A stretch of DNA of 64,000 nt. Source: Spartobacteria bacterium. Its GTDB lineage: Bacteria > Verrucomicrobiota > Verrucomicrobiia > Chthoniobacterales > UBA6821. Made by a program: the position numbers and the translations under genes. The stretch covers positions 1 through 64,000 of the forward strand of contig CANKWU010000001.1 in assembly GCA_947487385.1 (NCBI GenBank), written 5' to 3'. Of this stretch, positions 5,984 through 59,616 are shown one piece after another. Numbering within the stretch: the stretch's first letter is position 1; each line of letters opens with the position of its first letter. Below the pieces are notes generated by a model. It saw only the letters and a program-made list of their open reading frames with translations, had not been told where the DNA came from and did no database searches.

Positions 5984-8125
5984 ATGTCACACACTATCGT
6001 TACGGCCAATGTCGGCCAGAATCCTCTCAGTTTTGAGACCGGCAAGATCGCCAAGCTCGCCGATGGTGCCGTCGTTGTCAGTTCCGGCGAGACCATCGTT
6101 CTCGTCAGCGCCGTCTCCGCCACGTCCGTCAAGGATGGGCAGGACTTCTTCCCTCTCACCGTCGATTACAAGGAGAAGGCCGCCGCTGTGGGTAAGTTCC
6201 CAGGCGGTTACTTCAAGCGTGAGGGCCGTCCAAGTGAGAAGGAGATCCTGACTGCTCGCATGACAGATCGTCCGCTTCGCCCGCTCTTCCCGAAAAACTA
6301 CTTCTACGACACCCAGATCATCAGCATCCTGCTCTCCGCTGATGGCCAGATCGATCCTGATATTCTCTCCATCAATGGTGCTTCCGCAGCCCTTTGCGTT
6401 TCTGACATTCCGTTTGAGAAGCCGATCGCGGCAGTCCGTGTCGGTCGCGTGAACGGTGAGTTCGTTGTGAACCCCACCCACGCCGAGCGTGAATACAGTG
6501 ATCTCGACCTTGTCTATGTCGGCGATGGTGAGAATGTCATCATGATCGAAGGTGCCGCCAATGAACTTCCTGAAGAGGATTTCAAGAAGGCCCTCGACTT
6601 CGCCCGTGAGCAGACCCGTCCGATCATCGCCGCCCAGAACGAGCTGATCGCGAAGGCCGGCAAACCGAAGCGTGAGTTCACTCTTCTCAATGTCGATGAG
6701 GGAATGCTTGAGATCGCCTACCAGGTCGCCGGTGATCGAATCGAGGCCGCCCTCTACACCCCGAGCAAGGTGGCTCGTGGCAAGGCTGTCGGTGCACTCC
6801 GCGAGGAAGTGAGCTCCAAGATCATCGAGAAGTTCCCTGCCGCTACGAAGTTCGAGATCTCTCAGGCGTTTGATTATCTCCAGAAGAAGGCCTTCCGCGT
6901 CAGCATTCTCGATAAGCAGAAGCGTTGCGATGGTCGCGGCCTCCTCGAGCTTCGTCAGTTGACCAGCGAGACGACCGTTCTGCCACGCGCCCATGGTTCC
7001 GCGCTCTTCGCACGCGGCGAGACTCAGGCCATGGCGTTGGCCACCCTCGCCACTTCCGATGAGGCCCAGATGATCGACGGATATGGTGGCGGCGAGACGA
7101 CCAAGCGCTTCCTGCTTCACTACAATTTCCCTCCTTTCAGCGTTGGTGAGACTGGCCGCTTCGGTGGTCAGAACCGCCGTGAGATCGGCCACGGTGCTCT
7201 TGCCGAGCGCTCCATCTTTCCGGTCATCCCGAGCCAGCAGGAGTTCCCTTACGCTCTCCGCGTGACCAGCGAGGTCATGGAGTCCAATGGCTCAACCTCG
7301 ATGGCCTCGGTCTGCGCAGGCGTTCTTGCTCTGCTCGATGCAGGTGTCCCTCTCAAGCGTCCCGTCGCGGGTATCTCCGTAGGACTTGTCTCTGAGGATG
7401 ATGGCCATGGCAAGCTCACCCGCCACACCTTGCTGACCGACATCATTGGCAGCGAGGATCACTTCGGCGACATGGACTTCAAGCTCTGTGGCACCGAGGC
7501 CGGTGTTACTGGATTCCAGCTCGATCTCAAGCTCAAAGGCATCAGCCACGAGCTCATGTCAGCTGCGATCGACGACGCCCGCAAGAACCGCGGATTGATC
7601 CTTGATCATATGAATCAGACCCTTCCCGCACACCGCAGCGAGATGAGTAAGTATGCTCCCCGCATCGAGACCGTAAAGGTTCCTCAGGATAAGATAGGTC
7701 TCATCATCGGCCCTGGTGGCAAGACCATCAAGAGCATCGTTGCCGAGACTGGCGCCGAGATTAACATCGAGGATGACGGCTCCGTGAACATCTATTCAAG
7801 CAATGGTGAGAGCCTGAAGCGCGCGAAGGAGATCATCCTCGGCATGATTAAGGAAATCAGCGTCGGTGAGGTATACCAAGGAACAGTCGTCTCCATTAAG
7901 GAGTTCGGCGCCTTTGTCGAAGTTCTGCCGGGCAAGGACGGACTTGTCCATATCTCCGAGCTCGCCGATATGCGCGTCAACAAGGTCGAGGATGTTGTCA
8001 AGACTGGCGACGTTATCTGGGTCAAGTGCATCGGCGTCGATGACCGGGGCAAGGTGAAGCTCAGCCGCAAGGCCGCGATGAAAGAGCGCGACCAGGCTGC
8101 GGGAGTTACTGAGAATGCAGGTTGA
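5984..8125 (+). CDS. pnp: Polyribonucleotide nucleotidyltransferase (PNPase)
   Basis: The product (713 aa) is a phosphorolytic 3'-5' exoribonuclease of RNA turnover. Two RNase PH domains are joined by an alpha-helical segment. A KH domain follows ([15 protein letters not shown]), then an S1 domain ([27 protein letters not shown]). The 233-base gap after rpsO contains a stem CTGACC-N6-GGTCGG around 5788, a possible leader structure since PNPase often controls its own message. The start codon is preceded by a pyrimidine leader with CCTTAATTCCTAATTCTT and has no Shine-Dalgarno sequence. An intrinsic terminator closes the unit. Confidence 0.98.
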
Positions 8126-39039: not shown

Positions 39040-39930
39040 CTACGCACGCGGGTGCGCCGCATCATAGGCCCGCTTCAGCCGCTCTGTCGTCACATGAGTG
39101 TAGATCTGGGTCGTTGTCAGGCTCGCATGACCCAAGAGGGTCTGAACGCTTCGGAGGTCGGCTCCGTTGTCCAAGAGGTGAGTTGCGAAGGAGTGGCGTA
39201 ATTTATGAGGACTCAGCGTCACAGGAAGGCCCGCCTCGCGGACATACTTCTTCAGCAGGAGCCAAATGGAGCGATGACCGAGACGCTTGCGGCTTTTATT
39301 CAGGAAGAGAGGACCGCTCTGGACCATCGCCTTATGGCGGTACCGGGAGAGTGATTCAAGAGCCAGTCCTCCCACGGGCACGATGCGTTCGCGAGATCCC
39401 TTCCCCATCACCCGGACGGTTTCGCTGATCGGGTCGAGATCCCGAACATCGAGTGATGCCAATTCAGCCAGACGTAGTCCCGACGAGTAGAAAAGCTCCA
39501 GGATCGCCGCATCACGGGCGGCCATCCACTCGGGTGCCTGTTTCGATTTCAAACCCTCGGCAGGCTTTTCCATGAGTGTCGTCACTTGCGGGATGGTCAG
39601 GAATTGCGGGAGCTTTTTTTCCAATTTAGGAAGCGAGACCAGCTTCAGAACGTTCGTGGGGATAACATTCCGTTCGCAGAGATGATTGTAAAAACTACGC
39701 AACGCCGCAAAAGAGAGCCTGATCGTCGAGCGTGAGCGGTTCCGCTTCATGAGATCAAAGAGATAAGCCCTGAAGTCATCGGCTGTTGCTTCTGTCCATG
39801 CCAGAGAAGGGCGGAAGGCTCGGAACTGCGCGAGTGCCTGACGGTAGGAGCGCAGCGTCTGGGGAGAGTAATTCTTCCCATCACCCAGATAATCTAAGAA
39901 TTCCTCGGAGAGGGGGTCGTAGGGGTCCAT
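39040..39930 (-). CDS. xerC: Tyrosine recombinase, XerC/XerD type
   Basis: The product (296 aa) should resolve chromosome dimers at dif. The N-terminal SAM-like domain (YSPQTLRSYRQALAQF) precedes a catalytic domain with Arg in SSGLRLAELASLDV, Lys in VMGKGSRER, HKLRHSFATHLLDNGADL, His in LLGHASL and the nucleophile in TQIYTHV. The extra helix that marks integron integrases is absent between the catalytic Lys and the HxLR box, so this is a Xer protein even though an integron-like array starts 2.8 kb away. XerC and XerD cannot be told apart here. Confidence 0.92.
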   Translation of the reverse strand: MDPYDPLSEEFLDYLGDGKNYSPQTLRSYRQALAQFRAFRPSLAWTEATADDFRAYLFDLMKRNRSRSTIRLSFAALRSFYNHLCERNVIPTNVLKLVSLPKLEKKLPQFLTIPQVTTLMEKPAEGLKSKQAPEWMAARDAAILELFYSSGLRLAELASLDVRDLDPISETVRVMGKGSRERIVPVGGLALESLSRYRHKAMVQSGPLFLNKSRKRLGHRSIWLLLKKYVREAGLPVTLSPHKLRHSFATHLLDNGADLRSVQTLLGHASLTTTQIYTHVTTERLKRAYDAAHPRA

Positions 39931-40019
39931 GGGAACAATTAAAAGAGTGGAAGGGTTACACAGGTTATAAAAAGACAATGTCGCTGACCAACCAACCTAT
40001 CACTCATGGGAATCTTTTA

Positions 40020-40119
40020 TGACTCCGGCTTTTTAACGCTTCACCCCTTTAATGGATGAGTCCTTTTATTTCACGCTTCAACTTTTTCATGCTTCGATCC
40101 TTTAATGCTTCTCTACTTC
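40020..40119 (+). promoter_or_regulatory. Repeat leader before the WaaG-like gene
   Basis: The sequence before the start codon is made of degenerate repeats: TTTTTAACGCTTCACCCC, TTTCACGCTTCAACTTTTTC, ATGCTTCGATCCTTTAATGC. No Shine-Dalgarno sequence is present. Confidence 0.45.
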
Positions 40120-41250
40120 ATGTCCCCAACAAAACTCACCATCGGCTTCCTGCGTCGCGGATACTCGCCGACGGGTGGAGTGGAGGCCTATCTCAAGGGA
40201 CTGGCTGAGGGCTTGAGAGGGGAGGGGCACCGCGTCGTGCTGCTGGGAACATCGGAATGGCCTCAGAGCGAATGGCCGGGTGGAGAAATCCTCCGATGCA
40301 AGGGAGGGAACCTCTCGGATTACAGCGCCGAGGTGACGAGGCAAAAGGCCGACTCTGGTGTCCGGTTTGATCTCATTCTCTCGGTAGAGAAGGTCCCCGG
40401 ATGCGATCTCTACCGTACCGACGAAGGCCTCCATGCCGCATGGCTTGAGCAGCGCTCCCGCTACATTTCGCCCTGGGCACGCTTCTTCCAACGGATCAAC
40501 CCTAAGCACCGCGAGAAGCTCCGCCTTGAGAAGCAACTCTTCACTCCTGACGCCACACGTCGCGTCATCTCCCTCTCGCATAAAATCAGCAGAGAGATCG
40601 GCGAGTGTTACGGTTATCCGCAGAAGCAGATCACCCTGATCCGGAATGGTGTGCCTACCCGCTCAGTCTCGACTCCTGAGGAACGGGCTCATGCCCGTAA
40701 AGAACTCGGCATTCCTACAGAGGAAAAGGTCGCTCTCTTTGTCGGAACAGGATGGGAGCGGAAGGGGCTTCGATTTGCGATCAGGGCCGTGGAGGGACTG
40801 AATGATCCGAGGATAAAGCTCCTTGTCGCCGGCTCCGGATCGCAAAAGCACTACGCCTCGCCCAGTGTACGCTTTCTGGGCGGGGTCCGAGAGATGAAGA
40901 TGGTCTATGATGCGGCGGATCTCCTCCTCTTTCCCACGCTGTTTGATCCCTTTCCGCTGGCCACGCTGGAGGCCCTGAGTGCTGGTCTTCCCGTGATCAC
41001 CACGGCGGCCAATGGAGTTTCAGAAATCATGACATCGGGAGTGCATGGCGAAGTGATCGACGAACCCTCCGACATTGCTGCCCTAGACGCAGCTCTTCGC
41101 AAATGGTTCGATATTGTGAGTGACCCAGCCAGATCTGGTCAGGCCCGCTTGGCCTGCTCAGCGCTCGCCTCGGAGTTCACGCTGGAGCGAAACTTAAAGG
41201 AGACACTCGCAGTCATCCGCGAGGTCATCGTCGAGAAACCGAGCGCCTGA
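40120..41250 (+). CDS. Glycosyltransferase family 4, WaaG-like
   Basis: The product (376 aa) is a GT-B glycosyltransferase. The N-terminus reads GFLRRGYSPTGGVEAYL, and the C-terminal donor site contains LFVGTGWERKGLRFAIRA and FPTLFDPFPLATLEALSAGL (the E-x7-E type region). WaaG, the lipopolysaccharide core glucosyltransferase, has this arrangement, so a role in core or surface glycan synthesis is likely. The start at 40120 is used; an ATG at 40105 would add only five residues from the leader. Confidence 0.82.
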   Translation: MSPTKLTIGFLRRGYSPTGGVEAYLKGLAEGLRGEGHRVVLLGTSEWPQSEWPGGEILRCKGGNLSDYSAEVTRQKADSGVRFDLILSVEKVPGCDLYRTDEGLHAAWLEQRSRYISPWARFFQRINPKHREKLRLEKQLFTPDATRRVISLSHKISREIGECYGYPQKQITLIRNGVPTRSVSTPEERAHARKELGIPTEEKVALFVGTGWERKGLRFAIRAVEGLNDPRIKLLVAGSGSQKHYASPSVRFLGGVREMKMVYDAADLLLFPTLFDPFPLATLEALSAGLPVITTAANGVSEIMTSGVHGEVIDEPSDIAALDAALRKWFDIVSDPARSGQARLACSALASEFTLERNLKETLAVIREVIVEKPSA

Positions 41251-41376
41251 CGAGAAGAAGAGTAGCCACTCTTGGGATGAGCTGCACGAGTCTGCTCGGC
41301 GTATTTAATAGCTTCATGCTTTCGTTTGAAATTCAACTTGAGGCCATCGTACAAGGGCATTAAAAACTCCCGCATA

Positions 41377-42543
41377 ATGCGGCTTTTCAAATTCATTACG
41401 ATCATCATCGCCCTTTTTCTCCTTGGGGCATATTTCAAGGACTCGATTGAGAAGGGTCTTTCAGCCGCGCATTTATCCTTACCTCCTGAAGTTTTATCGA
41501 CAATCACGGCTCTCGTTGAAAACGCTAACCAGCTATGGGTAAGGGTGACAGCCTCAGCATCTAAAACTGCCCAAGAGGAAGTCTCATCGTCGACACCGTC
41601 TCAGGCATCATCTGCCCCCTTGGGAAAACCTCTCTCAAACCACCCACCCATTCTAGAACTCACCAAAGTTCCACTCACCGGAGAGAGTGAAAGCCTCACG
41701 ACCCTAGATGGAGAGCATTACACGGGTGTTATCAAGAGAGTGGAACCCGATGGAATCGTTCTGCGAACTTCCGATGGTGTTACTAAATTGAAATTCAAGA
41801 ATCTCCCCCCTGAAGTTGGTACAAAGTATGGCTACAATCCTGAGTTAGAGGTTCAGTTTTTGAGATTTAGGAATCAGGAAGATATCATTGCACAACAAAA
41901 TGCCGAAAAGCTTTATGCGCCGCCTGTCACTGCTTCAAGTAAGGATTTGCCCTCAGCAATCTCTACTCCTGTGGAGGTAAAGCCCCCCCTGATTGCCCAG
42001 CAAACCGACAGTCTCGTTCAGAATGGAGATTTCTCACGTGGAAAAAACGGATGGTCCGGAGATGGTGATTCTATTGCTGATTACCTCAGGGTTAACCCTC
42101 AGTCATTCTCAACCAATCTACCAGCCAATGGGCTTATTATTGCACTAAGACCACATGATTGGACGATACTCTTTCAGAAAATTCGTGGGGATAATAATCC
42201 TAATTATATTCTTACAATGAAATATGTCCTTTCCCCAGGCATTTCACTTTCAACTCTTCCTGCCGATTATATGGACATCATTGGTCATACTCATATCTCG
42301 GAATGGGAGGGATTTAGTCCAATCAATCTAAGTCCGGGTCAATTCTTTGATACGATTAAGGACACTTCGGATAATAAAGGTTTCTACGAAAAATATTCTC
42401 CAAACCTTTCTTCAAGTGAAGATCAAACCTACGAGCATCATGTCCCGCCTCTTCCGCCAGGCTCCTCAAAGCTTGTCGCTGTAGCCTTCCCTCCGGGAAA
42501 AGGATACGTTTTAATTAAATCGATCTCGGTTACCAGCCATTAA
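41377..42543 (+). CDS. Membrane-anchored protein of unknown function
   Basis: The product (388 aa) has one N-terminal membrane segment (FITIIIALFLLGAYF) and a Ser/Pro-rich linker. A small domain follows at about residues 105-175 (TLDGEHYTGVIKRVEPDGIV then VGTKYGYNPELEVQF), a beta-rich pattern I have seen in verrucomicrobial proteins. A C-terminal region starting at VQNGDFSRGKNGWSGDGD looks like a carbohydrate-binding-type sandwich. The base composition is more AT-rich than neighbouring genes, which may point to recent acquisition. No catalytic motif is visible. Confidence 0.6.
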   Translation: MRLFKFITIIIALFLLGAYFKDSIEKGLSAAHLSLPPEVLSTITALVENANQLWVRVTASASKTAQEEVSSSTPSQASSAPLGKPLSNHPPILELTKVPLTGESESLTTLDGEHYTGVIKRVEPDGIVLRTSDGVTKLKFKNLPPEVGTKYGYNPELEVQFLRFRNQEDIIAQQNAEKLYAPPVTASSKDLPSAISTPVEVKPPLIAQQTDSLVQNGDFSRGKNGWSGDGDSIADYLRVNPQSFSTNLPANGLIIALRPHDWTILFQKIRGDNNPNYILTMKYVLSPGISLSTLPADYMDIIGHTHISEWEGFSPINLSPGQFFDTIKDTSDNKGFYEKYSPNLSSSEDQTYEHHVPPLPPGSSKLVAVAFPPGKGYVLIKSISVTSH

Positions 42544-42727
42544 GAGTTGCTCTAAAATTCTTTTTATTAATAAGAGAATGGGGGTTAGATTCCTCCACTT
42601 GTCACGCGGATCAGAACCTTCAAGGGCGCAGATGATTGATCGGTTAATCTGGAATTGCTTGCCAGCTAAAGCATCGGGAAGGCTGGAATCCAGCCATCAA
42701 CTCATCATCGTCATGAATTAAAGAGAT

Positions 42728-42832
42728 CTTTAACGACCCCAAGCTCAGTGATGGAATGGCTTGGCGCGGAGCGTGCTGATCGGAGCACGATCCGTGACGC
42801 ACGGAGCAGTTCGCTGCAGCGCATAGTTAGGC
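42728..42832 (-). other. attC-like site 6, array terminus
   Basis: On the minus strand the site runs from GCCTAAC (42832-42826) to GTTAAAG (42734-42728). The inner part forms CGTGCT-N6-AGCACG with a further CGGA/TCCG. The R'' box equals the complement of the start of its own cassette (GTTAGGC at 43799). The stop of the M23 gene abuts it. The end GTTAAAG departs from GTTRRRY, and the outer arms pair poorly, so this is the least typical site. Confidence 0.6.
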
Positions 42833-42833
42833 G

Positions 42834-43757
42834 TTATTGATGAACGACCAATTCGACCAAAAGCTTCATCATCGGTGGCTGCACATCAGAAAAAAACAAT
42901 GAATCTCTCCAAACTAACTCTACGTCCGATTGACGGAAAAATGCCGCGCGTAAAGTCTCGATCAGACTGACTTCATCAGGTGTGGGGTTCAAGAGTGGGA
43001 GAAAAATCTGGTTCTGACTGTTGGCAACCTGCACACGGACAAATCTCAACATCCGATCTCTAACGATTTCATTGAACATTGTCAGCTTTCCGCGCGGTTC
43101 TAGGTGGCGAGTCGCTGGGTCATTCTTAAATCCATTCTTTTCCCAATTATAAAGGGAGCGAGTAGGGTTAAGAGGTAAGGAATGCCAAGTATCCCCGAGA
43201 TTGAGATTAGGAGACACGCCGGACAGGTCAAAGTGCGTGAACGCAGGCGCGCCTGCAGGAAGCGTCGGACCTGGACCGTAAATGGCTAAATACTCAGCCA
43301 GTAAGCTTTCGTTAAGAACCTGCCGCAACTCGAAGTGTAAGTGAGATGGAGTAGTTGCGGAGTAGGCAACGACTTGCCCGAGCAATTTTCCCGATGCCAC
43401 ATTCTCGCCTTTGGTAACCACGACACTCTGCATATGCCTGTAAGAAGTAACGATGCCGAGATCGAAGGGAGTGTGATGTATGGTAACAAACCAACCAGTG
43501 GTTGTGGGGCCAACTTGAACAACCACGCCCGGACCAGACGCGAAAACTTCTTCGTTGGCGGGTGCCAACAAATCTACACCAATGTGTGCGCTAATCAGCG
43601 GTTTCGACTCACGCCTCGCACCGAACAAGCCGTAAGATCGGTCTGTCCTTAATTTCAGCGGCAGAGAACTGATCGGCTCTGTGCCGCGAGATCCATGATT
43701 AAGGTCCATCGGGGGAGTAAGCAGAAACAATGAGGGATCGAGAATTATTGAGTTCAT
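42834..43757 (-). CDS. M23 peptidase-like protein (cassette 6)
   Basis: The product (307 aa) holds a LytM/M23 zinc-peptidase fold: HIGVDLLAPANEEVFASGPG (HxxxD ligands), RHMQSVVVTKGENVASG and the third ligand in SHLHFELRQ. M23 enzymes cut peptidoglycan cross-links or act as regulators. No signal peptide is apparent, so it either leaves by another route or acts in the cytoplasm. The stop codon TAA is two bases from the attC R'' box. The last 130 residues have no recognisable domain. Confidence 0.8.
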   Translation of the reverse strand: MNSIILDPSLFLLTPPMDLNHGSRGTEPISSLPLKLRTDRSYGLFGARRESKPLISAHIGVDLLAPANEEVFASGPGVVVQVGPTTTGWFVTIHHTPFDLGIVTSYRHMQSVVVTKGENVASGKLLGQVVAYSATTPSHLHFELRQVLNESLLAEYLAIYGPGPTLPAGAPAFTHFDLSGVSPNLNLGDTWHSLPLNPTRSLYNWEKNGFKNDPATRHLEPRGKLTMFNEIVRDRMLRFVRVQVANSQNQIFLPLLNPTPDEVSLIETLRAAFFRQSDVELVWRDSLFFSDVQPPMMKLLVELVVHQ

Positions 43758-43792
43758 TTGTGTTGTTTGGATTGCGGGTTGAAATGGAAAAC

Positions 43793-43919
43793 GCCTAACG
43801 TCAAAGGTATGGCTCCGGCTACTAAGAGCGCACCTCCGACTCTGGGTTAAAGGATGTAGTTACGGAAGTCATTTCGACTCGGACCGGGTAGCCTGTTGTC
43901 CACCACCGTCTTGTTCTGC
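43793..43919 (-). other. attC-like site 5
   Basis: Minus strand from GCAGAAC (43919-43913) to GTTAGGC (43799-43793). GTTAGGC fits the GTTRRRY consensus. The arms are GGCTAC/GTAGCC with a small inner hairpin around AGTC-ATTTC-GACT, so pairing is moderate. R'' is the exact complement of GTTCTGC, which starts this cassette at 44457. Confidence 0.7.
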
Positions 43920-43943
43920 TCTTGGTGATTTTTACTGCCAGGG

Positions 43944-44411
43944 CTAGGGCGCTGGCTTTACAGGAGCTAATCGCAATAGGTCTTTCGACAGCTCGAGAAT
44001 GCGGAACGAGTCCATCTTCCCATCGGCGGTGATCTTCAACAAAGTCCCATCGGTAACATCAATCTCCCACTTGCCAGGCTTGAAATGATGGGCGTCAGCC
44101 GGGTCGAGAAACATCCATTCACATTTCCCGTTCGGCGAGAACTTGTAGGCCATTCTGAATCGGCTTGGTGGGAATTGCCTGGACGTTGCCGGACGGAATA
44201 TTTGCTTCTTCGTGTCAGGATCCCTCTGCTCCTCACGGGAGTGAACCCAGTGCTGGAACAAATCTTTGATGTTAACCCCTTTGGGTGCAGCGATTACACC
44301 GTCCTTTGCGGCCTTGGAATCACGGGGATTACCGCTCTCTGGGGAAGCTCCGCCTAAGTCAGATCCCAACGTCAGTATGCTAATGACTAGTGCTGATTGT
44401 ATTTTCATCAT
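43944..44411 (-). CDS. Small secreted protein of unknown function (cassette 5)
   Basis: The product (155 aa) has a signal-peptide-like N-terminus (MMKIQSALVISILTLGSDLG). The mature part contains HWVHSREEQRDPDTKKQIFR, FPPSRFRMAYKFSPNGKCEW and WEIDVTDGTLLKITADGK. This layout of a beta-barrel-like fold with a charged strand resembles lipocalin-like small domains. No function can be assigned. It stands alone in its cassette; its stop is 25 bases from the attC R'' box. Confidence 0.6.
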   Translation of the reverse strand: MMKIQSALVISILTLGSDLGGASPESGNPRDSKAAKDGVIAAPKGVNIKDLFQHWVHSREEQRDPDTKKQIFRPATSRQFPPSRFRMAYKFSPNGKCEWMFLDPADAHHFKPGKWEIDVTDGTLLKITADGKMDSFRILELSKDLLRLAPVKPAP

Positions 44412-44450
44412 TGGTAAGACGCTTCAAAAGGCGATTTCTTAGAACTATTT

Positions 44451-44556
44451 GCAGAACGTTTTAGCTGAGCTATGGCCAATGCGGCGGGCTGGCTGCTGCG
44501 CGAGCAAGCAGCCGGCATGACGCATGTAAGCTGTTCGCTCCAGTGACTGGTTAGGC
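44451..44556 (-). other. attC-like site 4
   Basis: Minus strand from GCCTAAC (44556-44550) to GTTCTGC (44457-44451). The inside folds as GGCTGCT-N9-AGCAGCC with outer ATGCG/CGCAT pairs. The HNH gene's stop lies inside the R'' box, as is common in cassettes. R'' is the complement of GTTAGGC, which starts this cassette at 45296. Confidence 0.75.
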
Positions 44557-45273
44557 GAAGGTTATGCGTTTCTTTAAATCTTCGATTCGCAGCTTGGTAA
44601 ACTCACTAAATGCTTCACTATATTCAAGTCTTGCCAGAGATCCTCCGTGCGATTCGATTTGCTTTTGGGCGTAGACGTCTCGTTGTGCTCGCCATTCTTG
44701 CTGTTCGCGATATAGATCCAGCTGGTCAGCTGGAGGTAGTTTCTTGAATAATTTTGTATAAGTAACAAATAACTGGGCATCCGTAATGCCCGCGACGTTG
44801 GAGGAGACGTGGTTCATTTCACCTTGTGACACACGTTCACGTTGAATGCTGTAATAAAGGATCTCTATTGCGGAATCTAGGTGTGGCTCCCAATCATCTT
44901 GTACGATTTGCAATGCAGCTTGAGTTAATACAGAAGTATCTACTGAAAACTGTCCATGGTCATACTGTGCCGCATGAACGGATTTCATAAGGCGAAGGGA
45001 ATCCGCAGAATATAAGTCTGCGCGCGTATCAATACGTTTATGGTGAGCGTGACACATCAAAATAAGATTATCGTAGTGGCGCAAATCATCGTCTGTCTTA
45101 CTGGGGTCAAATCGTGCATCCTTTTTTAAGACAGCGTGTATATGACAAACTTCCCCTACGAAGATATTAAGATCATCGACCACTGCATTGCTGCATTTTG
45201 TAAATGCACATCTGTTCCCTGATTTTGCAAATAATGCCTTGAGTGTAGCTGGGGTTGGATCTTTCCGAGACAT
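44551..45273 (-). CDS. HNH nuclease fused to LprI-like domain (cassette 4)
   Basis: The product (240 aa) begins with an HNH fold: GNRCAFTKCSNAVVDD (Cys pair), GEVCHIHAVLKKDARF, YDNLILMCHAHHKRID. After a linker the last 80 residues, LFVTYTKLFKKLPPADQLDL then REQQEWRAQRDVYAQKQIES and GGSLARLEYSEAF, match the pattern of the lysozyme-inhibitor-like LprI/DUF1311 fold. That domain is normally periplasmic and secreted, so its presence behind a nuclease without a signal peptide is unusual. HNH proteins cut DNA; whether this one defends, edits or harms is unknown. The stop overlaps the attC box. Confidence 0.75.
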   Translation of the reverse strand: MSRKDPTPATLKALFAKSGNRCAFTKCSNAVVDDLNIFVGEVCHIHAVLKKDARFDPSKTDDDLRHYDNLILMCHAHHKRIDTRADLYSADSLRLMKSVHAAQYDHGQFSVDTSVLTQAALQIVQDDWEPHLDSAIEILYYSIQRERVSQGEMNHVSSNVAGITDAQLFVTYTKLFKKLPPADQLDLYREQQEWRAQRDVYAQKQIESHGGSLARLEYSEAFSEFTKLRIEDLKKRITFA

Positions 45274-45289
45274 GGTGTTTGTGCGAGTC

Positions 45290-45412
45290 GCCTAACGTCC
45301 CCGATGACCTATCCCTACTTGCTTCTGGCGTGGCTCCTGCCCGCGAAGCGGAAGCAGGAGGCATGACAGAAGTGCCGAAGGCATAGGGATTAGGTCCATC
45401 GGTCTGTTCGCA
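45290..45412 (-). other. attC-like site 3
   Basis: Minus strand from TGCGAAC (45412-45406) to GTTAGGC (45296-45290). The arms CCGATGACCTATCCCTA and TAGGGATTAGGTCCATCGG pair along their length except for two extra bases on one side, the extrahelical bases expected of attC. The inside continues with CTCCTGC/GCAGGAG. R'' here does not complement the start of its cassette (GTTAGGT), the only such mismatch in the array. Confidence 0.85.
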
Positions 45413-45424
45413 TTATTTTTTGAT

Positions 45425-46807
45425 TCACGCACACGCTTGCTGACCTCGCAGTTTCCACTTTTCTTGGCTTTTCGTGCCAAGGATATTCTTGTGGTGATTA
45501 AGCACCATTTCCCGAATCAACGGATTTACCGCAAAAGCCTGTGAATCTTGGCTTCGGACAGATGCTTCGTGGCTAAACCACTCTACAACAGTTCGTGAGT
45601 TTACATCAGGAAGCATTGAAGATACTGTATCTTCATTAACCTCATCAATATAGCAAAGAGCAATTAGCCACTCTTTCTGTTCGTCCGTCATCCACCTTGT
45701 GGTTCGTTCATAAATGCGCTGGTAGAACAGAGCATTCTGATTAGTGCCTTCGACAAAGGCAGCGAGAAGGAATGGCAATCCGCGGCAATCAGCATAAATG
45801 CGCTCAGCACGTTCTTTACTATATCCGGCCTCCGTCAGAAATGGAATTGCGTCTTCTGCGGGAAACGGCTGAAGAGCAAGTTTAAGCTTTGTATCAGTTG
45901 AAAAGTGCTGCTCAAAGCCAGGATCAGTATCTACCAATGAATCTCTACAAAGAAAAACAACCTGAGAGGGAAAATCTGCTGATCTGAGTAACGGCAGGAA
46001 GTGTCCGAGTAGGAAGGGAGTGAGCGTTTTACCGAGGATCTCATAATCGTCAATAACGAGCAACAGTCGATCTAGCTCTTTAATCCGGTCTTGGGTAAGC
46101 TTTGCAATGTCTTCAGGCCTCCACTTTTTCAATATCGCGGAGAGATCGCTTATCAAAGCCTCGCTGGCGACATCGAAAAGCTGAGTTCTTACTTTGCGGG
46201 CATACGTAATTCCGAAGACATCTTGCAGGACGCCCGGCAGGAAGGAAGTCTGCCCGCAATACTTCTGAATTAAATCAAATGCTTTATCTGTGACTTTTTC
46301 GAGCGATTGCTCCAAAAGAGCATTGCCTAAATGCCGCTTTCCTCCAGATTTCTTATTGAATGCAATTCCGAGTCTGAGCAACAACTGAACGGCTTCGCGT
46401 GTTATCTCAATTGCTTCTGGATCGACCTGCACCTCCGTACTGTTGAGAGAGGCCAACAAACCATCGCACTCAGCCCGATAAATCTTTTCCAGATTGCGAA
46501 CTTGAGGAAAAAAGTCCTTCTTGATTCCTCTTGGTATTCCCTTGAGATGGGTTGGAGCCATCATCTCAGAAAGAATTCTCATAAAATTGTCTGCCATTCC
46601 CTTCGAGGACGCATCAACCCAGATAATCAAGCGCCCGTGTCGTTCCGGCTCAATTTGCTGCATCACATGAGACAAAAGGTATGTTTTGCCCACTCCGCCC
46701 ATCCCCGAGAGGCTGAACAATTCAAACTTGTCCTTTGGTGACCGGAGAGCCTCAGTTAAGGCTGATATTTCTGATTGTCTGCCTACGACGGCATTTGATG
46801 TGTTCAT
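45425..46807 (-). CDS. STAND-type NTPase (cassette 3)
   Basis: The product (460 aa) has an AAA/STAND nucleotide-binding core: VVGRQSEISALTEAL at the start, Walker A in SGMGGVGKTYLLSHV, a hydrophobic Walker B strand LLLVIDDYE, an arginine-finger-like LCRDSLVDTD, and GLPFLLAAF as the GxP motif. A helical and winged-helix region follows to the end. No effector or sensor repeat is fused, unlike most STAND proteins of immunity or signalling. Partners would be encoded elsewhere. Its start has no Shine-Dalgarno sequence and lies 47 bases after the cassette boundary. Confidence 0.8.
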   Translation of the reverse strand: MNTSNAVVGRQSEISALTEALRSPKDKFELFSLSGMGGVGKTYLLSHVMQQIEPERHGRLIIWVDASSKGMADNFMRILSEMMAPTHLKGIPRGIKKDFFPQVRNLEKIYRAECDGLLASLNSTEVQVDPEAIEITREAVQLLLRLGIAFNKKSGGKRHLGNALLEQSLEKVTDKAFDLIQKYCGQTSFLPGVLQDVFGITYARKVRTQLFDVASEALISDLSAILKKWRPEDIAKLTQDRIKELDRLLLVIDDYEILGKTLTPFLLGHFLPLLRSADFPSQVVFLCRDSLVDTDPGFEQHFSTDTKLKLALQPFPAEDAIPFLTEAGYSKERAERIYADCRGLPFLLAAFVEGTNQNALFYQRIYERTTRWMTDEQKEWLIALCYIDEVNEDTVSSMLPDVNSRTVVEWFSHEASVRSQDSQAFAVNPLIREMVLNHHKNILGTKSQEKWKLRGQQACA

Positions 46808-46848
46808 ATAAGTTGGAGAATGGTGAGGCGGGTGGCGGCTATATTTTC

Positions 46849-46938
46849 ACCTAACGTCAAAGCACACATACGCGCCGGAGAAGACTCCCAAAACAATCAC
46901 ACGGACGGGGGCGCGTTATGTGATGCGCCTTGTTCGGC
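46849..46938 (-). other. attC-like site 2
   Basis: Minus strand from GCCGAAC (46938-46932) to GTTAGGT (46855-46849), 90 bases. The arms GCACACATACGCGCC and GGCGCGTTATGTGATGC pair fully except for two unpaired bases on one arm, the classic attC bulges. R'' is the exact complement of GTTCGGC, which starts this cassette. Confidence 0.88.
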
Positions 46939-47045
46939 TTCTTCATTAGATGCTTGGTTGGACAAGGAATTGGAAATAAGCAGAGCTACAAATGCGCTAT
47001 TACGCGAATCAAATAGAAAATTCAAGGAAACTGGTGTGTATGAAC

Positions 47046-47297
47046 CTATTGATTGGTCGCCTTTGATAGCTCTTGGAGTAAATCTTCCAAATGCTTATAC
47101 TTCTCATCAATCAAGTGAAGAGTCTCCTGATATTCCTTCTGACACGCTTCAAACTTATTAAACCCATGAACCACTTGGATATCTGTAACGTCGGCATCCA
47201 GTATGGTAATCGCTGCGTTCAATCGCTCACGGAGAACGCCCAACGTATTCAATTCTGAGTTGATTAAATCTTGATGTGTAATTGGTTTATTTGTCAT
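47046..47297 (-). CDS. Small coiled-coil protein (cassette 2)
   Basis: The product (83 aa) is almost entirely helical and charged (NTLGVLRERLNAAITILDAD, FEACQKEYQETLHLIDEKYK), consistent with a coiled coil. It has a good Shine-Dalgarno sequence (GGAGAA six bases before the ATG), unlike most genes here, which suggests a different origin. There is no known domain. About 110 bases between its stop and attC site 2 are non-coding. It may be an antitoxin or adaptor, but nothing in the sequence shows which. Confidence 0.65.
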   Translation of the reverse strand: MTNKPITHQDLINSELNTLGVLRERLNAAITILDADVTDIQVVHGFNKFEACQKEYQETLHLIDEKYKHLEDLLQELSKATNQ

Positions 47298-47346
47298 ATT
47301 ATTCTCCGCTTTGTTTGTTGTTTCGCTTCGTCTAAAGGATTATCTT

Positions 47347-47472
47347 GCCGAACGTCTAGCTCTGGCACAGATGGGGCGAGGGGGAGCGTCGATAGCAGGA
47401 AAGACTCCCGAGCCACGCGACGCTCCGTAAACAAGGCCGCCCCATCTGTTGTCCAGCAGCGTCTTGTTAGCT
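47347..47472 (-). other. attC-like site 1
   Basis: Minus strand from AGCTAAC (47472-47466) to GTTCGGC (47353-47347). CAGATGGGGCG and CGCCCCATCTG are perfect arms, continued by GCTCTGG/CCAGCAGC with one extra base, and inside by GGAGCGTCG/CGACGCTCC. Unpaired spacers GTCTA and GTCTT separate the boxes. This is the clearest attC structure in the window. R'' is the exact complement of the cassette start GTTAGCT. Confidence 0.9.
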
Positions 47473-48136
47473 ATCTTGTTTCAGTGACGGCCTGCTTTTC
47501 CAGGAGCGGATGGATAAATCCTGAATAGGAATCACCGCAAGTCACGATCTTCTCGCTGGTTGGTGCCGGCCAAAACTTCTCGTCCGGCGCGCCATACAGC
47601 TCTTCGTAAACCGCTAGAGTTTCTTTGTAGATTTCAAACATCGCAGGACGTGTGTCGTCTTTTGCTGGGATGTGATCGACCATGGCTTGCTCGTTTTGAG
47701 CCTTCCGCTTGTCTTCCCAGTGTTGAAAATTGTAGTGCTTCCCTACCCGCGGCTGGTCGCCGTAGTCTCCGAAAATCGCAGTGCAAAATTGCACATATTC
47801 TGGAGTGTGAAGGACAAAAAAGTGCCAATACATGTCCACTGGACCAGATGGAGCATTCCTGCGACTGGGTTTGAGCAGTGCTAACGCTACAAAGCGCTTG
47901 AACTCGAACTCGAGCTGGCGCGAAACGTCAAGGTTCATCTTCATGTCATACTTCGCGAAGTGCTTGATTAAAGGGAAGAGCTGCTCGGGCGAAAATTCCC
48001 GGAGCTCTTCCTCAATGAGGTGGTTAGTGAGAAAAGAAAGATCATAGCCGGTCAGTGCGAGCAAACGTTGCATCACGAGGTCTGAAGGCTGGACCTTATC
48101 GATCGCAGATTGTGGAACAATTTGGTGTGGTTTCAT
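47471..48136 (-). CDS. GRDP/DUF1399-like protein of unknown function (cassette 1)
   Basis: The product (221 aa) has an N-terminal helical half and a central segment GPVDMYWHFFVLHTPEYVQF followed by CTAIFGDY and VGKHYNFQHWED. The pattern VDxxWHxxxLxTxxYxxFC with a later His is typical of the glycine-rich-domain (DUF1399) family, found in plants and some bacteria. Conserved His and Cys suggest metal binding. Biochemical role unknown. Its stop codon lies inside attC site 1 (the R'' box), which ties gene and cassette together. Confidence 0.65.
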   Translation of the reverse strand: MKPHQIVPQSAIDKVQPSDLVMQRLLALTGYDLSFLTNHLIEEELREFSPEQLFPLIKHFAKYDMKMNLDVSRQLEFEFKRFVALALLKPSRRNAPSGPVDMYWHFFVLHTPEYVQFCTAIFGDYGDQPRVGKHYNFQHWEDKRKAQNEQAMVDHIPAKDDTRPAMFEIYKETLAVYEELYGAPDEKFWPAPTSEKIVTCGDSYSGFIHPLLEKQAVTETR

Positions 48137-48162
48137 AGTTTGGTTTATTCGGAGATTTTCTT

Positions 48163-48229
48163 AGCTAACGTATTTTAGAATGACATGTCATTATATTGCA
48201 ATAATGGAACACATGTGTTATTTTAAAAG
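48163..48229 (-). other. attI-like junction with two ACATGT palindromes
   Basis: The cassette array begins on the minus strand at GTTAGCT (48169-48163), preceded by TTCTAAAATAC, which recalls the CTAAAACAAAG before the attI1 crossover. Between it and the integrase fragment are two perfect palindromes, AATGACATGTCATT (48179-48192) and AACACATGTGTT (48208-48219), with centres 28 bases apart. They are candidate operators for a regulator of the divergent integrase and cassette promoters. Confidence 0.6.
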
Positions 48230-48544
48230 ATGAGTGATAACTCGTTGATTTCCAATATTCCACAGAGTTCTCCCATATCCGATGCGTAGTAGGATGAGAG
48301 GTGGGGAAGATTTTCATAAGGCTTGCTCTCCCGCGGCATCGTTGCGGGGAAGCATGACTTTTTTCGCAACTGGGTGAGGAAGTTCATTGGGTTTGTGAAA
48401 CCGAGGAAGTGGGATCAGGCGCTACGAGATGATGTGGGGCAATACCTAGCTCTCCTGGTAAGTGATGGCAAGGCCGGATGGCAGGTTTTGCCCGGGCCCT
48501 CCTTAGAGGCTGGTACTCCCCCACGGGTGTTACCTATGTCCTAA
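48230..48544 (+). pseudogene. Decayed tyrosine recombinase, probable integron integrase
   Basis: The frame starts with MSDNSLISNIPQSSPISDA, then hits TAG TAG at 48287-48292 and TAA at 48317. It resumes as SRGIVAGKHDFFRNWVRKF, with IGFVKPRKWDQALRDDVGQY and LALLVSDGKAGWQV. This is the helical N-terminal DNA-binding region of tyrosine recombinases (the WxxxF segment and a helix ending in a WQ pair). Similarity then stops; no catalytic domain remains. The gene diverges from the cassette array exactly where an intI would lie. Three stops and a lost C-terminus show it is dead. Confidence 0.65.
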
Positions 48545-48626
48545 TCCGTGCCCTGCTCGGCATTCCCGATACTCTTTTTCACTTTTTAACTCTTCGACTA
48601 TTTTAACTGCCACGCTCGGCGCGGCG

Positions 48627-49532
48627 TTACCCCAATCGTTGTACGGAGACTTCGACGATCATCTTGCGAGTCCCCTTACCTCGGAAGGTTCCACCGACGG
48701 GACGGATGTCACTATAGTCGCGACCGACAGCCAGCTTAACGTATCGGGTATCGGCCTCGCGGCGGTGGGTGGGGTCATACCCCTTCCAGCCATAGCCGGG
48801 AATGAAGACTTCCAGCCAGGCGTGGCTTGCCTCGATTTCACCCGGAAGCTTGTGCTGGTTGAGGAAATATCCGCTGACATAGCGGGCTGGAATGCCATGT
48901 GTCCGCAGGAGACCAAGCATGAGGTGGGCAAAGTCTTGGCAAACCCCCTGCCTTTTCTTGATCACCTCGGAGGCACGGGTGTTCACGTTGGTGGCAAGGG
49001 GGGTGTACTTGTAGTTGCGGTGGATGTATTCACCGATGGCCGCGGTATCGTTCCAGACATCGCTGACTCCTGCGGGGAGGGCATCGACGGCCTCTCGCCA
49101 GACATCGGCTCCCAGGGAGACGAATTCCGAGGAATGAAGGAAGTGAAAGTGATACTCTTTGACGGAGGGGTCTTGCAGGCTCTTTACGCCAACCTCGGGA
49201 ACTGGACCCCGAGTCTCGGTGATGGTCTGGACTTCGGATTCAGCCAAGACTTCGAGGGATTCATGAGGGTGGGGGACGTCGAAGTAATGGACGCAGTTGG
49301 CATAAAAGTCGGGGTAGTCGCGCACGGAGGATGCCGGATCGATCGTGAAGCGGAAGTCCCGGCACTCCTGGAGCGTGTCGGTGATCGGCTGGAGGCGCGC
49401 CTCGTTAAAGCTATCCTGAACCGCTCCTTCGTAGGTGTAGCTCGTGAGGTGGGAGATCGAGAGGAGGATCGGCTCGGTCCATGGGCCCTGCGATCGAATC
49501 ACTTGGCCCGGGCTGGAGGATTCGGTGATCAT
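48627..49532 (-). CDS. Transglutaminase-like protein of the alpha-E/ATP-grasp cluster
   Basis: The product (301 aa) has an N-terminal beta domain (SISHLTSYTYEGAVQDSFNE) and a cysteine-protease/transglutaminase core with Cys in KRQGVCQDFAHLMLG, His in IEASHAWLEVF and Asp in YDPTHRRE. This is the standard triad. It overlaps the alpha-E gene by four bases. With alpha-E and ATP-grasp proteins it forms a widely conserved trio thought to make or trim a peptide-like product. The pathway is not established. Confidence 0.9.
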   Translation of the reverse strand: MITESSSPGQVIRSQGPWTEPILLSISHLTSYTYEGAVQDSFNEARLQPITDTLQECRDFRFTIDPASSVRDYPDFYANCVHYFDVPHPHESLEVLAESEVQTITETRGPVPEVGVKSLQDPSVKEYHFHFLHSSEFVSLGADVWREAVDALPAGVSDVWNDTAAIGEYIHRNYKYTPLATNVNTRASEVIKKRQGVCQDFAHLMLGLLRTHGIPARYVSGYFLNQHKLPGEIEASHAWLEVFIPGYGWKGYDPTHRREADTRYVKLAVGRDYSDIRPVGGTFRGKGTRKMIVEVSVQRLG

Positions 49533-50608
49533 TGCTGTTGCTGCATTTGCTGCTGATGCAGAAGGATCTCCGACTGGGTGTCGACCGGCGGATGGTACAT
49601 GTATTCCTGGTAGATGTGGTCGTCGAGGCGGTCGAGTGTGGTCTGCACGAGCTGGAGGAACTGATGGAGTCCATTTTTCAGGATCTCATCGATGGTTATG
49701 AAGTTCATGTCGGAGAGGAGTTTGCAGAAGGCCCGCTCCTCGGCGCTCTTGTATTCGCGTCGTTCGTTTCCACTCAGGCGGTGAAGATCCTCGTCAAGAT
49801 GCTGCATGCAGGAAAGGAGTGAGCGAGGGAAGGTTGGTGAGAAGATCAGGAACTCCGCCACTTTCTTAGGAAGGATATCCTCGACGTGGAATCGGCGGTA
49901 GGCCTCCAGAGCGCTGGCCGAACGCAGGATCGCCTGCCACTGGGCTGCATCCACGGCACCTCCCACATCAGCCACGCTTGGGAGGAGGATGTGGTATTTC
50001 AGATCGAGAATGCGGGTGGTCTTGTCGGCGCGTTCCAAGAACTTGCCAAGGTTGATGAATTCGTACCCTTCGTTGCGGGTGAAGGTTGATCCGGTGAGCC
50101 CTTGGAAGAGATGGGAGTATTTTTTGATCTGTTCGTAAAAGTCATGGGCTCCGGTCTGCCAGATCTCCCGGGCATTACTCGACTTCAGGAAGAGGTAGCA
50201 CTCGTTGAGCGTCTCGAACATCTCCAGTGAAATCTGATCGCGAACCTGACGGGCATTCTCACGCGCTGCGAAAAGGCATGAGAGGATGGAGTTGGGATTC
50301 TCTTCGCTGAAGGTCAGGAATTCGGTGACGCTTTCACTGTCGGCTTTTTCATACAGCTTGAAGAAGGTCTTCTCATCACCGGACGAGCAGAGGATCGGAA
50401 GCCAATGTTTCTCGAGTTGTGCCTCATCGAAATCGGCGAAATCCAGCATCAGCTGGAGGTTCACATCGAGAAGGCGGGCGACATTCTCCGAGCGCTCGAT
50501 ATAACGGCTCATCCAGTAGAGGGAATTGGCCACTCGGGAGAGCATGAAGAGGCTGTCGCGTCTGTTGGAAATCGGCTTCTGAACCGAAGGGATAATAAGT
50601 TCGCTCAT
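49529..50608 (-). CDS. Alpha-E domain protein (DUF403)
   Basis: The product (359 aa) is an all-helical protein with the family start FMLSRVANSLYWMSRYIER, and SENVARLLDVNLQLMLDFAD. A late conserved segment is FPRSLLSCMQHLDEDLHRL. Its function is unknown beyond co-occurrence with circularly permuted ATP-grasp and transglutaminase proteins. The start at 50608 follows a leader with two GCATCCTCTTCC-like repeats; an alternative ATG at 50545 (MLSRVANS) is the usual family start. The C-terminus is Gln-rich. Confidence 0.9.
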   Translation of the reverse strand: MSELIIPSVQKPISNRRDSLFMLSRVANSLYWMSRYIERSENVARLLDVNLQLMLDFADFDEAQLEKHWLPILCSSGDEKTFFKLYEKADSESVTEFLTFSEENPNSILSCLFAARENARQVRDQISLEMFETLNECYLFLKSSNAREIWQTGAHDFYEQIKKYSHLFQGLTGSTFTRNEGYEFINLGKFLERADKTTRILDLKYHILLPSVADVGGAVDAAQWQAILRSASALEAYRRFHVEDILPKKVAEFLIFSPTFPRSLLSCMQHLDEDLHRLSGNERREYKSAEERAFCKLLSDMNFITIDEILKNGLHQFLQLVQTTLDRLDDHIYQEYMYHPPVDTQSEILLHQQQMQQQQ

Positions 50609-58888: not shown

Positions 58889-58951
58889 TTTTGCGTTGAG
58901 GGCCTTCCAGCCGTGAGGTTTTTTTGTAAAAACTCCTTGCGGACCCTTTTG

Positions 58952-58987
58952 ATTTCATATACCGAACAAATGAACGGTATATGAAAT
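58952..58987. promoter_or_regulatory. Perfect inverted-repeat operator at lexA
   Basis: ATTTCATATACCG (58952-58964) and CGGTATATGAAAT (58975-58987) are a perfect 13-base inverted repeat with a ten-base spacer. The right arm contains the lexA ATG (58981). Such a site would let LexA block its own transcription and initiation. It differs from the TGTTC-N4-GAACA type I remember for Verrucomicrobia, and the spacer has GAAC-N4-GAAC instead. Confidence 0.75.
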
Positions 58988-59616
58988 TGACCTTAGATCT
59001 CACCCCACGACAAATGGAAATTCTCTCTTTTATCCGCGACTGCAAGGAGGAGAGGGGGGGTATTCCCTCTGTTCGTGAGATCATGGTGCGGTTCGGATTC
59101 ACCTCTCCTGCGACCGTGGCAAGCCATCTGGATCTTATGGAAAAGAAGGGGGCCATTCGTCGCGAGGCAGGGCGGTCGAGGAATATCATCCTTCCAGATC
59201 GTGAAGTTCAGAAGTCTCTTCCGGAACTTCTCGCAGTTCCCCTTTATGGGATGATTCCCGCCGGTATTCCCGAGGGCCAAGAGCAGGAGATGGATCGCTG
59301 TATCACGGTTGATCCCGAGACGATTAAGATCCCTCGCAATGCCAAGACCTTCGCGCTGGAGGTGCGGGGCGATTCCATGATCGGAGCCGGGATTCTGGAC
59401 CGTGATGTCGTGATCTTGGAGCATTCCGAACCTCGGAATCGCGATATCGTCGCAGCCTTGATCGACGGAGAGGTGACGCTAAAGCGTTATCTTGTGGAGG
59501 AAGGAATTCCCTTCCTCCGTGCCGAGAATCCGCTCTATCCCGATCTTATTCCTGCCCGCGAACTCCTGATCCAAGGAGTCTTCCGAGCGCTGATCCGAAC
59601 TCATCTTCCACGTTAA
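58981..59616 (+). CDS. lexA: SOS repressor LexA
   Basis: The product (211 aa) represses SOS genes until RecA-ssDNA triggers self-cleavage. The N-terminal winged helix is LTPRQMEILSFIRDCKEERG, GIPSVREIMVRFGFTSPATV. The cleavage site is the Ala-Gly of MIPAGIPEG. The catalytic pair is Ser in VRGDSMIGAGI and Lys in GEVTLKRYL. The start codon is inside its putative operator, so the message has little or no 5' leader if the -10 (TATACC at 58959) is used. Confidence 0.96.
   Translation: MKLTLDLTPRQMEILSFIRDCKEERGGIPSVREIMVRFGFTSPATVASHLDLMEKKGAIRREAGRSRNIILPDREVQKSLPELLAVPLYGMIPAGIPEGQEQEMDRCITVDPETIKIPRNAKTFALEVRGDSMIGAGILDRDVVILEHSEPRNRDIVAALIDGEVTLKRYLVEEGIPFLRAENPLYPDLIPARELLIQGVFRALIRTHLPR

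Follow-up and report, generated by a model that had tools for sequence, protein, structure and literature searches.

The window analyzed here, a stretch of 64,000 nucleotides from a Spartobacteria bacterium, contains the 5' end of a pseudogenised integron integrase gene (intI; 48230-48498, + strand) beside a cassette array. The locus is very probably a decayed chromosomal integron, in a group where intI was presumably lost repeatedly, the attI core with its promoter-like motif was kept, and the arrays persisted as expressed but static units. The frame opening with the ATG at 48230 translates as MSDNSLISNIPQSSPISDA, two consecutive stops, DERWGRFS, a third stop and GLLSRGIVAGKHDFFRNWVRKFIGFVKPRKWDQALRDDVGQYLALLVSDGKAGWQV. 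An initial annotation had described a tyrosine-recombinase N-terminal fragment at the position of intI, with three in-frame stops and no catalytic domain. These features were all found again: the stops lie exactly at 48287-48289 (TAG), 48290-48292 (TAG) and 48317-48319 (TAA), 61 bases separate the ATG from the crossover G (48169), the fragment is divergent from the cassettes, and the catalytic domain (R...HxxR...Y) is absent from the window copy and from the three other copies in this genome. As the catalytic domain is absent, the window copy is a pseudogene and not a functional IntI. The extent of the fragment, originally drawn to 48544, holds only up to about 48498, where the DNA homology to intI ends. 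A +2 frameshift occurs around 48486 (window CAGGTTTTGCCCGGG versus CAGGTTGCCCAGG in the copy on contig C8), and positions 48499-48544 beyond it are not intI, 48544 being the first stop of the shifted frame.

The fragment was delimited by translation, copy alignments and the profile PF13495 (Phage_int_SAM_4), which matches it weakly (E = 0.0041, 17.9 bits) and below the cut-off of 27 bits, while the better-preserved copy on C8 scores above the cut-off (E = 3.3e-6, 27.8 bits). A 336-bp stretch of the window has a second copy elsewhere in the genome, with 92% identity (E = 2e-134); this copy and the attC sites at the expected place indicate that the fragment is no chance resemblance. DNA and protein searches of plasmid records gave no match, and no relative of the fragment was found in the PDB.

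A class-wide protein search of 384 genomes recovered full-length relatives of 459-470 aa. Four of them (L057, L058, L059, and L069) score 419-431 bits against the integron integrase model TIGR02249 (integrase_gron; cut-off 265), with the alignment running from about residue 145-157 through to the end. PF13495 matches twice in each full-length relative, and the isolated N-terminal domain of L057 scores 39 bits against a cut-off of 27; the first ~110 residues thus form an additional SAM-like domain. The window fragment corresponds to this extra first domain, which only long IntIs have, and not to the classical IntI N-terminus, so that its initial description as a recombinase N-terminal part is correct but becomes more specific. 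The IntI-specific patch EWxWxWxFP is present in the intact relatives (EWVWYWLFPS, EWGWQYVFPA) and in a remnant of the sister species G016 (EWGWFWVFPS), and is deleted in the window copy. The intact relatives also have an attC/attI context, with an AACGTAT core followed by the divergent intI gene. L059 and L060 match at and to the right of this core and are wholly different to its left, as expected for a cassette insertion point. Taken together, these homologues point to IntI, and not to Xer or phage proteins, as the family of the window fragment; the assignment is indirect for the window copy itself, of which only the N-terminal domain is left. Matches reaching well upstream of the classical IntI start also occur at loci of gammaproteobacteria, deltaproteobacteria, and Nitrospira, while a scan of viral contigs with an intact relative as query gave nothing. 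An IntI clade that is ~120 aa longer was reported in 2008 and ascribed to one gene fusion (clade 15; PMC2426708). The long IntIs described here have a similar extra length and likely belong to the same clade; the extra part is here a second PF13495 SAM-like domain, which ties it to a concrete domain family.

The organization of the locus is that of an integron. The attI site (48163-48229, - strand), delimited by comparison of the copies, extends from the crossover core GTTAGCT (48169-48163) up to the intI start codon. Cassettes insert at G^TT, with the cassette crossover at 48169/48168, and across copies the left side is variable and the right side conserved. The intI stump (+ strand) is divergent from attI and the array (- strand), whose cassettes end in attC sites of one orientation. 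A Pfam search and attC scan assigned to the first cassette (47353-48168) an ORF of 221 aa (47471-48136) without a Pfam match. Its attC (47347-47472) and a second one (45290-45412), following a STAND ATPase cassette, were detected by a strict scan, which found these two sites in the array versus one in a control of ~110 kb on both strands; the strict scan took the place of a lax one, in which chance hits were too frequent. Some attC-like sites of the array fail the strict scan, all on the - strand: 46849-46937 (recognized by eye, with a longer variant in the lax scan), 44451-44558 (less canonical) and 43793-43919 (both by eye or lax scan), and a further less canonical site from near 42832 (by eye). 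The ATPase cassette (45425-46807) encodes a protein of the STAND/NB-ARC type (AAA_16, NB-ARC), possibly a defence protein. An Rfam search over 40000-50000 returned nothing useful. A cluster of attC sites with no IntI nearby also describes a CALIN, but unlike a bare CALIN the window locus keeps attI and the intI stump.

The array lies between a glycosyltransferase gene (ending at 41250) and a transglutaminase gene (48627-49532). Because these genes are adjacent in sister species, the 7.4 kb between ~41231 and ~48636 (approximate ends of the whole inserted unit) represent an insertion. The two genes are aligned ~29 bp apart in G014 and G010 and are likewise adjacent without an array in G017, G019, G008, G015, and G013, so the site is empty in at least seven sister species, that is, in most of them. 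Remnants of attI and intI are present at this locus in G011 and G016. The insertion also contains a 405-aa ORF (41326-42543, + strand) opposite to the cassettes and without a Pfam match. At the otherwise empty site of G017 (contig C99; L105, ~6757-7058) we observed an unrelated insert of ~240 bp with inverted-repeat-like parts.

The initial annotation described one dead intI; it is present as noted, but the genome holds four attI sites with intI stumps. The other three copies are found at C8:10982-11315 (92% identity), C7:37344-37615 (92%), and C17:16610-16707 (90%). All four have the same core start and a different 3' end on the intI side, and on the opposite side each adjoins cassettes whose attC-type sites have the expected place and orientation. 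The distance from the stump to attI is equal in all copies. A recognizable intI 5' end is left at three of the four loci, with the first codons only on C17. All loci lie between convergent genes (C7 as judged from the orthologous G010 locus). We do not claim gene conversion among the window, C7, and C8 copies: the differing sites are mostly private and few are shared by a pair.

Orthologous loci in sister species have other deletions. At the C7-type locus of G010, 74 N-terminal residues are fused in an open reading frame to ~16 C-terminal residues (IntI C-terminus MIYTHVLNKPGLAVRSPLD), G011 keeps ~45 N-terminal and 10 C-terminal residues, and G016 only 126 C-terminal residues; judged from these sequences, the three deletions appear to be independent. 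G011 carries an identical internal deletion with a shared 3' flank at two loci, the C7 locus and that of the window, which implies either duplication of a gene already dead or conversion between the two copies. Several genomes (G010, G011, G014, and others) have an empty C8 locus; in G021 it is occupied, with an attI core identical to that of the window over 42 bp. The first cassettes differ among species at orthologous loci. One aldo-keto reductase gene ends both the C7-type array of G010 (L131, 8431-11077) and the C17 array of the genome studied here (L029, 4611-7839), which suggests a chromosomal rearrangement between integron loci.

The attI core of ~42 bp (window 48167-48208, AACGTATTTTAGAATGACATGTCATTATATTGCAATAATGG) is well conserved at these loci. 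It is 0.93-1.00 identical between the window copy and those of C7, C8, and G010, compared with 0.86-0.91 over the next 100 coding bases. In the genus, the core occurs at ~20 sites in nine of 16 genomes, often without any intI. Such solo sites have 0.76-1.00 core identity to the window, and most of their flanks are unrelated. Nine sites without recognizable intI were analyzed, five of which have a strict attC on the expected side and strand. The most constant columns of the core, TATTTTAGAA and TATTGC, coincide with a promoter-like pair, TTGCAA-18-TAAAAT (48201-48172, - strand), which points into the cassettes and may be a cassette promoter (Pc). This candidate is based on the motif match and the conserved columns: the pair matches at nine of 12 positions, with 0.8 such hits expected by chance in the scanned region. 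A pair seen by eye at the same position in L057 reads CTGACA-17-TACAAT. These sequences suggest that a cassette promoter is what retention of the core preserves, although the core could alternatively be conserved as a recombination site used in trans. A broader and rather doubtful reading is that core and promoter form a dispersed, selected element of the genus: platforms would have settled at a number of sites flanked by convergent genes and lost intI again and again; the conserved solo attI/Pc sites left behind would continue to drive cassette expression and might be used in trans by short IntIs of unrelated type. We make no claim of SOS control, as the window contains neither TGTTC-N4-GAACA nor CTGT-N8-ACAG and attI does not share the palindrome found upstream of lexA. 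This palindrome, a long inverted repeat at 58930-58990 (TTCATATACCGAACAAATGAACGGTATATGAA), lies directly upstream of a lexA-like gene (58981-59616), overlaps the beginning of that gene and possibly represents this group's LexA box.

Could the fragment stem from a Xer protein or from a phage or transposon integrase that landed beside the cassettes by chance? Taken alone, it shows no more than a weak match to a generic SAM-like domain of integrases. We nevertheless reject this origin as extremely improbable, as the full-length homologues are IntIs far above the TIGR02249 cut-off, with the IntI patch and attC arrays, the G010 copy is in frame with an IntI C-terminus, and the stump keeps an equal distance from attI in all copies. 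The multiple copies with intact 5' ends could also be seen as a self-spreading non-autonomous repeat, a MITE-like internal-deletion derivative, which would fit the preservation of both ends by the internal deletions of G010 and G011 and the deletion common to two G011 loci with its 3' flank. In this genome, however, the 3' ends all differ and none contains the IntI C-terminus, the 5' boundary is the cassette crossover and not a transposon end, and all four copies are attached to cassettes; gene conversion or duplication of an already dead integron also explains the shared G011 deletion. Spread as such a repeat is therefore very unlikely, and we retain the decayed integron as the preferred reading.

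Within that reading, it remains to be weighed whether the array is still rearranged by an IntI acting in trans, encoded outside the assembled sequence or acquired from a sister species. The assembly, from a freshwater Spartobacteria-type bacterium, is a draft of a 2-Mb genome in 48 contigs with 94.5% completeness, and genome-wide statements rest on sequence searches. Profile searches of it with PF00589 and TIGR02249 matched only two Xer-like proteins, one in the window (39040-39978, top score XerC) and one on C46, and found no IntI elsewhere in the assembly, in agreement with the proposed loss of the array's own integrase. Searches of the genus likewise yielded no intact long IntI. Intact short IntIs do occur in three sister genomes (G012, G015, and G017), and G012 combines one with three attI-core sites; the well-conserved core and the different first cassettes at orthologous loci would also suit an integrase working in trans. 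Against this, none was found in the assembled part of the genome, the short intI genes have no such attI core upstream and their products may not recognize it, and the cassette differences may predate the loss of intI. Ongoing activity in trans is thus unlikely, if less so than the two origins discussed above. The array, described initially as frozen unless a trans-acting integrase exists, is likely, but not certainly, frozen for integrase-driven change: at 94.5% completeness the assembly may lack an intact intI, and an integrase from elsewhere might work in trans.

The history of the decayed integron would be as follows. These attI sites would once have received cassettes through the action of long IntI proteins, and intI was presumably lost later, repeatedly and independently. 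The ~42-bp core would have been retained because it carries the Pc-like pair pointing into the cassettes, leaving arrays that may now be expressed, static units. Any further change would be due to ordinary mutation, to homologous recombination among the copies, or to an imported integrase working in trans. These gene stores thus appear deserted, yet their content is probably still expressed. The genus offers a natural series of integron decay, from the empty site over the occupied site, the internally deleted intI and the 5' stump to the solo attI core. This series can be used to test which parts persist once the integrase is gone (apparently the attI/promoter core in this case) and to what degree cassette arrays are stable in its absence.

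A decayed chromosomal integron is of a known kind. About one third of the intI genes in an earlier survey were pseudogenes, and multiple integrase genes were present in ~20% of the bacteria with integrons, in some through intragenomic duplication (Nemergut et al., 2008; PMC2426708). As in those pseudo-integrons, the intI next to the cassette array was inactivated here by stops, a frameshift, and a deletion, but four stumps of one intI type occur in one 2-Mb genome in which no intact IntI was found. Three features are unusual: the number of stumps (four) in so small a genome, the presence of the dead gene version at two G011 loci, and solo attI cores that are conserved. In Xanthomonas, intI was lost repeatedly and in a lineage-specific manner and the arrays were stable afterwards (PMC12444791). 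The repeated loss and the intI-less arrays at several loci resemble our case. Xanthomonas, however, has intI at one locus (ilvD) and its other CALINs elsewhere without intI, whereas three of the four loci described here keep the intI 5' end besides the attI core, and other loci of the genus keep the attI core alone.
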